Shown: one piece after another, positions 659 through 7,509 of the stretch
Layout: each line of letters starts with the position of its first letter
Numbering within the stretch: position 1 is the first letter of the stretch
NCBI RefSeq assembly: GCF_900537075.1
Contig: NZ_UNRA01000002.1
Span: 248,001 to 312,000, forward strand
Reading direction: 5' to 3'
Source: Tropicibacter sp. Alg240-R139
Lineage (GTDB): Bacteria > Pseudomonadota > Alphaproteobacteria > Rhodobacterales > Rhodobacteraceae
Length of the DNA: 64,000 bases
Translations under genes and position numbers: made by a program
Notes under the pieces: generated by a model
Databases searched by the model: none
What the model was told of the DNA's origin: nothing
What the model saw: the letters and a program-made list of their open reading frames with translations, nothing else

Positions 659-1291
659 ATGCGCAAGGTTCTGTTTGCTGGGCTTTTTGTCTTGTGCGGT
701 TTTCCGGCAACGGCGGATCCGCTGGTGGTCGCCGCTTTGGGCGACAGCCTGACCCAAGGATATGGCCTGCCGCAGGGACAGGGGTTCGTGCCACAGCTGC
801 AAGGCTGGCTGGATGAACAGGGCGTCGAGGTGAAATTGATCAACGCGGGTGTTTCAGGCGATACAACCGCCGGTGGCGCCGCTCGGGTGGCTTGGACATT
901 AACACCAAACGTCGACGCGATGATCGTGACGCTTGGCGGCAACGACATGCTGCGCGGGATCGACCCGGCTGCAGTGCGTCAGAACCTGACGACGATCCTG
1001 ACGGCTGCGCGCGATGCAGATGTTCAGGTTCTGCTGGTCGGCATGCAAGCGCCGGGCAATTATGGTCCCGAGTACAAAGCGGACTTCGACAACGCGTATG
1101 TTGAGTTGGCCGATGAGTTCGGGGTGCTTCTGGCCGAGAGCTTCTTTCAAGGCTTCCCAGTGAACGATGATCCGTCCGCTGTACAGCAATGGATGCAGGC
1201 CGACGGCATTCACCCGAATCCCGAGGGTGTGACTCTGATCGTAGAAGCGTTGGGGCCGCAAGTTTTGGACCTGGTCGATGCTGCGAAGTGA
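659..1291 (+). CDS. tesA: Periplasmic GDSL/SGNH esterase (TesA-like lysophospholipase/arylesterase)
   Basis: SGNH hydrolase that cleaves thioesters, lysophospholipids or aryl esters in the periplasm. The ATG at 659 is chosen because it begins a clean Sec signal peptide (MRKVLFAGLFVLCGFPATA, then DPLVV); the longer reading from 581 adds an implausible leader overlapping the divergent gene. SGNH block I is GDSLTQGYG with the nucleophilic Ser, the Gly block is INAGVSGDTT, the Asn block is TLGGNDMLRG, and the Asp/His pair sits in DGIHPNPEG near the C-terminus. The mature length of about 190 residues fits TesA. It is paired divergently with the YbbA-like ATPase gene. Confidence 0.9.
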   Translation: MRKVLFAGLFVLCGFPATADPLVVAALGDSLTQGYGLPQGQGFVPQLQGWLDEQGVEVKLINAGVSGDTTAGGAARVAWTLTPNVDAMIVTLGGNDMLRGIDPAAVRQNLTTILTAARDADVQVLLVGMQAPGNYGPEYKADFDNAYVELADEFGVLLAESFFQGFPVNDDPSAVQQWMQADGIHPNPEGVTLIVEALGPQVLDLVDAAK

Positions 1292-1347
1292 TTTGTCTTC
1301 TGGCCAACCGGTCCTTTAGGCTGATTGAGGAAGCGAAGGAAATTCAA

Positions 1348-1965
1348 ATGCCGGGGCGTTTTTTTCTGACCACGCCGATGACAGAGGTGGCTGAGCAGTT
1401 GTGCGTTCCGGTCGGCGACCTGACCGATGAACCGCCGCGCCAAAACATCCAGCCGGGTCAAGACATCGTGGTACTGACCCCCCTGGGATTGACCCAAATG
1501 CGATGGGGTATGATCCCTGTCGGTCGGGTCAATGCAAGGGGACGTCCAGTGATGGAGACCATCATCAACGCCCGCTCGGAGACGGTGTTCGACAAGTCGG
1601 CGTTTGACGGGGTTGGCCGGGCCATCATCCCGGTGGATGGGTGGTATGAATGGACAGGCGAGAAACGACGCAAAACCACTTGGCGCCTTTCTGCCAGAGA
1701 TGGGCGGCCGCTATTTTTTGCTGCCATCACAGACGTCTGGATTGCTCCGGGTGGGTTGCAGGTTCCGCAAGCTGCAGCTGTTACCTGTGAACCGAACGCC
1801 GATGTCGAACCCATCCACCACCGGATGGGTGTCATCCTGAAGGAAGATGATGTGCAAACTTGGTTAACTGGAGAAGAGGGCGTCGCCCGCGATCTGATGC
1901 GTCCATTGCCAAATGGCCTTCTGGACATCCGCGAGGCAAAAGATGTGAACTGGTCAAGCCCATAG
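1348..1965 (+). CDS. SRAP/YedK (HMCES-family) protein with Pro instead of the catalytic Cys2
   Basis: SOS response-associated peptidase (SRAP) domain protein, 205 residues. Family members such as YedK and HMCES bind abasic sites in single-stranded DNA and cross-link through Cys2 once Met1 is removed. The domain is otherwise well kept: Asn in INARSET, Glu in DGWYEWTG and His in PIHHRMG. Residue 2, however, is Pro (it begins MPGRFFLTTP where the family begins MCGR). No upstream in-frame start restores MCGR: the longer reading to 1189 overlaps the esterase gene. Met removal before Pro would leave an N-terminal proline. Whether this alters or abolishes the chemistry is unknown. Confidence 0.85.
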   Translation: MPGRFFLTTPMTEVAEQLCVPVGDLTDEPPRQNIQPGQDIVVLTPLGLTQMRWGMIPVGRVNARGRPVMETIINARSETVFDKSAFDGVGRAIIPVDGWYEWTGEKRRKTTWRLSARDGRPLFFAAITDVWIAPGGLQVPQAAAVTCEPNADVEPIHHRMGVILKEDDVQTWLTGEEGVARDLMRPLPNGLLDIREAKDVNWSSP

Positions 1966-5694: not shown

Positions 5695-7362
5695 TTACCG
5701 CACAAACTTCTTGTGCTTCAACCGTTTGGGCTCCAAAGAATCCGGCCCCAGACGGCGTTTCTTGTCTTCTTCGTAGTCCTCGAAGTTGCCCTCGAACCAT
5801 TCCACGTGGGCGTCGCCCTCAAACGCCAGGATGTGCGTACAAATCCGGTCGAGGAAGAAGCGGTCGTGCGAGATGACCACGGCGCAGCCGGCGAAGTCGA
5901 CGAGGGCGTCTTCCAACGCGCGGAGGGTTTCGACGTCGAGGTCGTTGGTCGGTTCATCGAGGAGCAGCACGTTGCCGCCTTCTTTCAACAAACGGGCCAT
6001 GTGGACGCGGTTGCGTTCTCCGCCTGACAGCAGGTTCAGCGGTTTCTGCTGATCGCCGCCTTTGAAGTTGAACGAAGAGCAATAGGCGCGGGAGTTCACC
6101 TGCGCGTCGCCTAGTTCGATGATCTCGGCGCCGCCGGAAATGGATTCCCAGACGGTTTCTTTATCATTCAGGTCATCGCGCGACTGGTCGACGTAGGACA
6201 GTTTGACGGTATCGCCATAGGTCACAGACCCGACGTCAGGCTGTTCCTGGCCGGTCAGCATGCGGAACAGGGTCGATTTACCTGCTCCGTTGGGGCCGAT
6301 GACGCCGACAATGCCGCCGGGGGGCAGGGCAAAGGACAGGCCCTCGACCAGCTGTTTGTCGCCATAGTGCTTGGCGATGTTGTCGACCTCGATCACCTTG
6401 CCGCCCAGACGGGGGCCGTTGGGGATGACGATCTGGGCGCGGGTCAGCTTCTCGCGCTCGGACTGTTGGGCCAGATCGTTGTAGGCGTTGATCCGGGCCT
6501 TGGATTTTGCCTGACGGGCCTTGGCGCCCTGACGCATCCATTCCAATTCGCGCTGGAGGGTCTGCTGCTTGGATTTGTCTTCGCGGGCTTCTTGTTCCAG
6601 ACGTTTGGCCTTCTGTTCCAGCCATGCAGAATAGTTGCCTTCGTAGGGGATGCCTTTGCCGCGGTCGAGTTCCAAGATCCACCCGGTGATGTCATCCAGG
6701 AAGTAACGGTCGTGGGTGACGATCAGAATTGTGCCTTTGTAATCAATAAGGTGCTGTTGCAGCCAGGCGATGGTTTCGGCGTCCAGGTGGTTGGTCGGTT
6801 CGTCCAGCAGCAGCATTTCGGGGGCTTCGAGCAGCAATTTGCACAGCGCCACGCGGCGTTTTTCACCGCCTGAGAGGTTGGCGATCTGGGCATCATCGGG
6901 GGGGCAGCGCAGCGCCTCCATCGAGATGTCGATTTGCGCGTCCAGATCCCACAGGTTTTCGGCGTCGATGGCATCCTGAAGGGTGGTCATCTCCTCCATA
7001 AGCTCGTCAGTGTAGTTCTCGGCCATCTCGATTGCGATGGCGTTGAAACGGTCGACTTTTGCCTTCTTCTCGGCGACGCCCAGCATGACGTTTTCACGTA
7101 CATTCAGAGTTTCGTCGAGCTTGGGTTCCTGCGGAAGGTAGCCCACTTTGGCCCCTTCGGCGCACCAGGCCTCGCCGGTGAAGTCCTTGTCGAGGCCGGC
7201 CATGATCTTCATCAGGGTCGATTTACCCGCGCCGTTGACGCCGACGACACCGATTTTAACGCCCGGAAGGAAGGACAGGTGAATGTTTTCAAAGCATTTC
7301 TTGCCACCGGGATAGGTCTTGGAGACCCCCTGCATGTGGTAGACATATTGATAGGCAGCCAT
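5695..7362 (-). CDS. ettA: Energy-dependent translational throttle protein EttA (ABC-F)
   Basis: Cytoplasmic ABC-F ATPase that binds the ribosomal E site and gates the first elongation cycle according to ATP/ADP. The 555 residues hold two ABC domains: Walker A GVNGAGKST and GPNGAGKST, signatures LSGGEKRRV and LSGGERNRV, and Walker B LLLDEPTNHLD and LLLDEPTNDLD. Between the first Walker A and signature is the arm insertion typical of EttA, and the charged linker (about residues 240-320) separates the domains. The N-terminus YQYVYHMQGVSKTYPGGKK and the length are characteristic of EttA rather than Uup. It is monocistronic; phased repeats lie about 150 bp upstream. Confidence 0.95.
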   Translation of the reverse strand: MAAYQYVYHMQGVSKTYPGGKKCFENIHLSFLPGVKIGVVGVNGAGKSTLMKIMAGLDKDFTGEAWCAEGAKVGYLPQEPKLDETLNVRENVMLGVAEKKAKVDRFNAIAIEMAENYTDELMEEMTTLQDAIDAENLWDLDAQIDISMEALRCPPDDAQIANLSGGEKRRVALCKLLLEAPEMLLLDEPTNHLDAETIAWLQQHLIDYKGTILIVTHDRYFLDDITGWILELDRGKGIPYEGNYSAWLEQKAKRLEQEAREDKSKQQTLQRELEWMRQGAKARQAKSKARINAYNDLAQQSEREKLTRAQIVIPNGPRLGGKVIEVDNIAKHYGDKQLVEGLSFALPPGGIVGVIGPNGAGKSTLFRMLTGQEQPDVGSVTYGDTVKLSYVDQSRDDLNDKETVWESISGGAEIIELGDAQVNSRAYCSSFNFKGGDQQKPLNLLSGGERNRVHMARLLKEGGNVLLLDEPTNDLDVETLRALEDALVDFAGCAVVISHDRFFLDRICTHILAFEGDAHVEWFEGNFEDYEEDKKRRLGPDSLEPKRLKHKKFVR

Positions 7363-7509
7363 GGTGCGTCCTTTGGGGTGGGGAATTCAGGTTGGGCGGT
7401 GTGATAGCTGAACGTTGGGGGCGGGGCAATCGTCCAGATGCCTGGCGGGTCGGTCGAACGCCACGAAAGTGTGACGCCTCTGAGGGTGCTCAAACGGTCG
7501 AAAACTGCG

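Follow-up and report, generated by a model that had tools for sequence, protein, structure and literature searches.

The window (the whole stretch of 64,000 nucleotides analysed, from Tropicibacter sp. Alg240-R139) encodes a SRAP protein that carries a proline at the position of Cys2. It belongs to a conserved group of SRAP paralogues whose N-terminal nucleophile appears to have been switched from Cys to Pro and which may act as turnover AP lyases; judged from residue conservation and from the chemistry of characterised proteins, this reading is given a probability of about one half. Many marine roseobacter-type bacteria carry a Pro2 SRAP, which probably seizes abasic sites and cleaves them rather than remaining attached. 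The protection of abasic sites by SRAPs is understood through Cys2, which has been called absolutely conserved in them (PMC3765255). A Pro2 subfamily with an otherwise intact site repeats the C2A experiment in nature and bears directly on the function of the thiol (to protect against cleavage). Among the titles and abstract starts of the top matches in the open-access literature, no Pro2 or other natural Cys2-less SRAP was found; subscription papers are mostly outside this literature, and the absence is thus unproven.

The gene starts with the ATG at 1348 and ends with the stop codon at 1963-1965, and the N-terminus of its product is MPGRFF. The sequence-only reading had described this start instead of MCGR, and the start, the coordinates and the frame were right. 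It had also described the active-site Asn, Glu and His as retained, which agrees with the alignment with E. coli YedK (MG1655 yedK): Pro2 occupies the Cys2 column, and Arg4, Asn74, Arg76, Glu101, Trp102, Thr146, His157 and Arg159 of the window protein correspond to Arg4, Asn75, Arg77, Glu105, Trp106, Thr149, His160 and Arg162 of YedK. In the Pfam scan of the window protein, SRAP (PF02586; 135.4 bits, cut-off 27.1) alone was matched, and no Fpg/Nei N-terminal domain was found; PF01149 has a single match in the genome scan, at another locus. The solved relatives found by sequence (11 at E <= 0.001) are all SRAPs: YedK, HMCES and structural-genomics entries. The second SRAP of the genome (G000:C2:662190) is of the ordinary Cys2 type. 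It starts with MCGR, scores 228 bits (135 for the window protein) and is 36% identical to the window protein across the aligned part. The sequence-only reading dealt with one gene and overlooked this paralogue, the Trp67 change, the loop specific to the clade and the pairing with an esterase gene. The features of the locus are collected in the table.

Table. Features of the Pro2-type SRAP locus in the window. Residue numbers are those of the window protein; YedK equivalents are given in brackets.
Feature	Position	Strand	Basis
GDSL-type esterase gene immediately before the SRAP gene (position of its start uncertain)	659-1291	+	Lipase_GDSL_2 93.5 bits
AAGGAAA, likely ribosome-binding site before the ATG	1336-1342	+	by eye
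Pro2-type SRAP gene, 205 aa	1348-1965	+	Pfam SRAP 135.4 bits; AF2 pLDDT 90.6
CCG codon of Pro2 (YedK/HMCES Cys2)	1351-1353	+	sequence, alignment
Residues 59-68 GRVNARGRPV, clade-specific loop replacing the YedK Trp67-Trp68 stretch	1522-1551	+	alignment
Asn74 codon (YedK Asn75)	1567-1569	+	alignment
Glu101 codon (YedK Glu105)	1648-1650	+	alignment
His157 codon (YedK His160)	1816-1818	+	alignment

The AlphaFold2 model of the window protein (53 aligned sequences) has a pLDDT of 90.6 and a pTM of 0.89. Foldseek with this model returned 21 PDB chains at E <= 0.001. All are SRAPs, including 8d2m (YedK C2A, Schiff base to abasic DNA). The VIA-align superposition on 8d2m covers 192 aligned residues, from residue 2 of both proteins (Z 22.3, rmsd 2.5); for the 15 entries shown, Z ranges from 20.4 to 25.2. 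The window protein shares with E. coli YedK and human HMCES the superfamily, the fold (VIA Z about 22) and the equivalents of Arg4, Asn75, Arg77, Glu105, Trp106, Thr149 and His160. It differs from them by Pro for Cys2, Gly for Trp67 and a clade-specific loop, and its identity with YedK is about 26% over the structural alignment.

Orthologous loci (L033-L142, 110 in number) were picked by similarity, with residue 2 ignored. PGR is found as residues 2 to 4 in 110/110, so that the alignment of roseobacter relatives proposed in the sequence-only reading gives Pro2 throughout. With the window's own locus, these loci encode 101 distinct proteins. The equivalents of YedK Arg4, Asn75, Arg77, Glu105, Trp106, Thr149, His160 and Arg162 are present in 101/101 of them, and in 115/115 distinct Pro2 proteins of a larger set. 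For comparison with the latter, 66 distinct Cys2 proteins were taken from the family, the class and viruses, plus YedK. The majority of the positions that Cys2 SRAPs conserve are conserved in the Pro2 set too. Only three positions (YedK numbering) are near-fixed on both sides yet different: Cys2, which is Pro in 115/115; Trp67, which is Trp in 65/66 Cys2 relatives and Gly (113) or Ala (2) in the Pro2 set; and Ala152, which is Pro in 114 of 115 Pro2 proteins. Pro164, found in 66/66 Cys2 proteins, is Gly (104), Ala (10) or Leu (1) in the Pro2 set, where Val204 is mostly replaced by Ala (111). The GRVNARGRPV loop after the Trp67 position hardly varies within the Pro2 clade. Cys147 (100/101 in the Pro2 clade) adjoins the equivalent of YedK Thr149. 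It was considered as a moved nucleophile, which was not adopted since Cys147 also occurs in ordinary members.

In YedK, the abasic sugar is opened by Glu105 and His160, after which the Schiff base comes from the N-terminal amine and the thiazolidine is closed by the thiol (PMC9436759). YedK C2A still gives a Schiff base with its N-terminal amine, and it cleaves AP-DNA; a borohydride-trapped Schiff base is reported for C2A and C2S, and AP lyase kinetics for C2A (PMC9436759). The rate constants given are 0.05 for the lyase activity of C2A, 0.002 for that of C2A E105Q and 1.7 for the borohydride-trapped Schiff base (PMC9436759). C2A and C2S resemble the Pro2 clade by their thiol-less N-terminus and intact Glu105 and His160. 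They differ from it in that they are engineered primary amines, whereas the Pro2 clade has a natural secondary amine fixed in a whole subfamily.

The other precedent is found among the Fpg/Nei AP lyases. Mycobacterial Nei2 (M. smegmatis) loses its Met and uses Pro2, then N-terminal, as the nucleophile of its AP lyase on ssDNA; cleavage falls from 93.8% (wild type) to 3.3% (P2A) and 2.6% (P2C) (PMC11323726). Nei2 and the Pro2 SRAP share the Met-Pro start, and an N-terminal Pro nucleophile is expected in the Pro2 SRAP too; Nei2 acts on ssDNA AP sites. The fold is unlike: the PDB matches of the window model are SRAPs, and the Fpg/Nei domain is absent from the window protein. Glycosylase activity is not expected in a Pro2 SRAP. 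The AP lyase of Nei2 also needs a Lys; no equivalent Lys was identified in the Pro2 SRAP. The Schiff-base and AP-lyase chemistry put forward in the sequence-only reading is thus precedented both by YedK C2A (PMC9436759) and by Nei2 (PMC11323726). Its term "suicide cross-linker" for the Cys2 proteins was too strong: YedK undoes its own cross-link in the course of hours (PMC9436759).

The proposed mechanism has four steps. Met1 would be removed by methionine aminopeptidase, as expected from general knowledge, from purified YedK (without Met) and from the structure of Nei2 (residue 2 Pro), in which Met is unseen. The protein would then bind ssDNA with an abasic site, and Glu101 and His157 would open the sugar to the aldehyde, given their identity with YedK Glu105 and His160. 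The secondary amine of Pro2 would attack C1', which would yield a cationic iminium. A thiazolidine through residue 2 should be chemically impossible without the thiol; beta-elimination on the 3' side and hydrolysis would free the protein, which would make it a turnover AP lyase. More speculatively, the absence of Trp67 and the presence of the Arg-rich GRVNARGRPV loop would fit a re-shaped site and DNA grip. By analogy with the proteins above, a covalent Pro2 iminium with the AP site is likely (about two in three); for turnover lyase as the main function, the chances are about even. If true, an unrelated fold would have reached the N-terminal-proline solution of Fpg/Nei. A wider picture is offered tentatively, as somewhat less than an even bet: a SRAP-fold AP lyase, converged with Fpg/Nei on an N-terminal Pro, would work beside a protective Cys2 SRAP in the same cells, one capping ssDNA abasic sites and the other cutting or clearing them, possibly with the cross-links of its sister too.

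The first alternative, unlikely as it stands, is a reversible AP-site shield: an iminium or a non-covalent cap whose hydrolysis would be much faster than beta-elimination, with no cutting and no lasting cross-link. The AP-site residues are all kept, as such a shield would have them. In YedK C2A, Schiff-base trapping (1.7) far exceeds lyase activity (0.05); elimination is therefore not the default fate. As C2A is a slow lyase, a Pro imine in this pocket could end mainly in hydrolysis. However, the permanent charge on the Pro iminium should favour elimination as in Fpg/Nei, and the loss of the thiol in the SRAP fold gave a lyase in print (PMC9436759).

A pseudoenzyme, binding ssDNA or AP-DNA with no covalent chemistry, is quite unlikely. 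SRAP lineages of this kind seem to exist. Two of them, A (L474-L503) and B (L504-L533), were used as a control; their types turned up in the phylum census described below, and they consist of the 30 best-scoring loci of each search and come from two genome families. In lineage A, residue 2 is Ser (13), Cys (11) or Thr (6), the Asn75 position is His (23) or Gln (7), His160 is gapped in 30/30 and Glu105 is kept in 30/30. In lineage B, residue 2 is Ala (26) or Thr (4), the Asn75 position is Cys in 30/30, Glu105 is replaced by Val (24), Leu (3), Ala (2) or Ile (1), and His160 by Ser (18), Thr (11) or Gly (1). Arg4, Arg77, Trp67 and Trp106 are kept in both lineages (30/30 each), which are apparently non-covalent DNA binders. 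In lineage A, 11/30 rows retain Cys2 without Asn75 and His160, so that the coupling between residue 2 and its partners is loose in this lineage. As Cys2 is not fixed in these lineages, its description as absolutely conserved (PMC3765255) does not hold.

The Pro2 clade resembles lineages A and B in having no fixed Cys2, but shows the opposite pattern in its site: residue 2 is fixed and the catalytic Asn, Glu and His are kept in 115/115, whereas Asn and His are lost in both lineages and Glu also in one. Because position 2 and its partners are fixed in this clade, whereas in lineages A and B position 2 varies and Asn and His are lost, Pro2 looks like a changed nucleophile rather than decay. This contrast is the strongest evidence here for a Pro2 chemistry, and it favours retained chemistry over the non-covalent binder that the sequence-only reading had allowed. 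The gene is under strong purifying selection: between the window gene and its two nearest named orthologues, dN is about 0.084, dS 1.3-1.4 and dN/dS about 0.06. Decay as the main reading was rejected from dN/dS, from the retention of Asn, Glu and His and from the contrast with lineages A and B. The same contrast suggests a simple rule that separates re-tooled from decayed SRAPs, a split that the shared name "SOS response-associated peptidase" (annotation on relatives) would hide.

A changed substrate is very unlikely. The N-terminal Pro would here be a base or nucleophile on another carbonyl: a thiazolidine cross-link made by a Cys2 paralogue, an unsaturated aldehyde at a 3' end or a small esterase-linked aldehyde. 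The replacement of Trp67 by Gly, at a position where Trp is kept in the Cys2 and lineage A and B rows, could mean such a change, and the near-invariant new loop points the same way. The tight pairing with the esterase gene is also consistent with it. In 67/80 orthologous loci, the SRAP gene is preceded by a GDSL esterase gene in the same orientation, and the gap between the two genes is at most 10 nt in 59/68 (the window, with a gap of 56 nt, is among the 68); from this short gap, the two genes probably form one operon. A further SRAP match is found in 32/35 Pro2 genomes of the family sample (Cys2 status read for some only). Against a changed substrate, Arg4, Arg77, Trp106 and the AP-site residues are unaltered, and 8 of 90 Pro2 genome rows have no second SRAP match (3/35 in the family sample and 5/55 in the order sample; the samples overlap, and at most 12 candidates per genome were scored in the order sample). 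Four of the five order-sample genomes concerned are at least 99% complete, with no flagged stop. Since some genomes lack a second SRAP match, the Pro2 protein may not strictly need a partner SRAP, which is suggested and not firm. One Pro2-type SRAP (G266:C5:222592-223167), the only SRAP match of its genome, carries one flagged in-frame TAG.

An annotation or sequencing artefact that masks a Cys2 start, a possibility raised in the sequence-only reading for a sequencing error, is excluded by the 110/110 PGR, preceded in 109 by ATG, GTG or TTG. The first codon is ATG in 95 loci, GTG in 13, TTG in 1 and AGG in 1. The last case (L121:3998-4000, from a MAG) has AGG directly before Pro-Gly-Arg, hence no start codon there, and could be taken for such an artefact; so could the window frame, which is open upstream of 1348 as far as an ATG at 1189 and which places the window gene outside the strictest start-site cases. 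In 67/100 distinct loci, no alternative start (ATG, GTG, TTG or CTG) is present up to the upstream in-frame stop, and in none of the 100 distinct Pro2 loci do the 150 nt ahead of the start encode MCGR on the strand of the gene. In the controls, MCGR is found in 31/31 Cys2-type family loci (best-scoring ones and the window genome's own) and in 26/26 best-scoring class loci outside the family.

Pro2 proteins were found only within the window's family, in the genomes sampled here. In the family sample (248 genomes), a close relative is present in 35, the window's included (at least 54% identity; next best 44%). In the order sample (244 genomes; the listed ones are all of the same family), 55 have an orthologue of at least 238 bits by alignment A1. 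These orthologues score 301 to 370 bits, with 238 for the one of G396; next below them come a second G396 protein (145 bits) and others of at most 136. The 35 and 55 rows were counted by hand. In a one-genome-per-species scan, the best 80 of 137 loci were kept; they come from Ruegeria, Tateyamaria, Shimia, Sulfitobacter, Cognatishimia, Silicimonas and the like, and two from "Alphaproteobacteria bacterium". In the class sample (338 genomes, 5 of the window's family), the best match outside the family scores 130 bits. The phylum census (68 loci) includes 31 MCGR, 1 Pro2 (G248, already in the order sample) and 6 with Ser, Thr or Ala as residue 2; the other 30 loci were left out of these counts (divergent starts, many of them Met-Cys, or unplaced N-termini).

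In a tree made without the first four residues, the Pro2 proteins (30/75 rows) form one branch with a bootstrap of 100, which had not settled, and an SH-aLRT of 98; YedK is a long branch. In an earlier quick tree with residue 2 included (56 Pro2 rows of 110), the support of this branch was 97. In G396, about 2 kb separate two Pro2 SRAP genes (L197:4274-4858 and 6925-7494). One product is an ordinary clade member (50% identity) and the other branches off before all other Pro2 proteins. The latter has a canonical-like body that retains Pro164 and Val204 of the Cys2 type and has no NARGRPV loop, yet Pro2, Gly at the Trp67 position and Pro at the Ala152 position are already in place. These three changes travel together, as all are present in this deepest-branch protein. 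The NARGRPV loop seems to have come later, or to have been lost in this protein.

Viral contigs include 32 relatives (profile scan), with no Pro2 start among the readable N-termini. Two degenerate-DNA scans for viral Pro2 SRAPs gave 98 and 79 stretches; 0/165 loci encode a SRAP by a profile that finds 32/32 in the control set. The second scan was added since the spacing in the first pattern fell slightly short of that in YedK-like proteins; both miss GTG starts. Relatives are found in 1560 plasmid and 50 phage records, all below 60% identity.

SRAP neighbourhoods described in print include umuDC, imuAB-dnaE2 or dinB (PMC3765255). The neighbours sought in the 80 Pro2 loci were those of the window gene; in the 4-kb flanks, 54 loci have a cold-shock gene and 30 an L,D-transpeptidase gene. 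SOS boxes were counted with a consensus of the box. Before the Pro2 SRAP gene, exact boxes are found in 0/111 upstreams and boxes with one mismatch in 11/111 (12.2 in shuffles). Before the esterase gene, the counts are 0/68 and 5/68 (16.8 in shuffles); in the Cys2 family set, 0/30 and 6/30 (3.35). SOS regulation of the Pro2 SRAP gene has no support from the counts before the SRAP and esterase genes. Gene context by itself tells no DNA-repair story: with no SOS-box signal and an esterase, not a repair gene, as partner, the role in DNA rests on homology. Among 30 upstreams of Cys2 SRAP loci (L001, L003-L032), 10 have a TAnnnK hexamer that starts 12 nt ahead of the ATG and 5 have one at 13 nt, a spacing that would suit leaderless transcription of these genes. 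In Pro2 genes, TAnnnK is found 12 nt before the start in 11/111.
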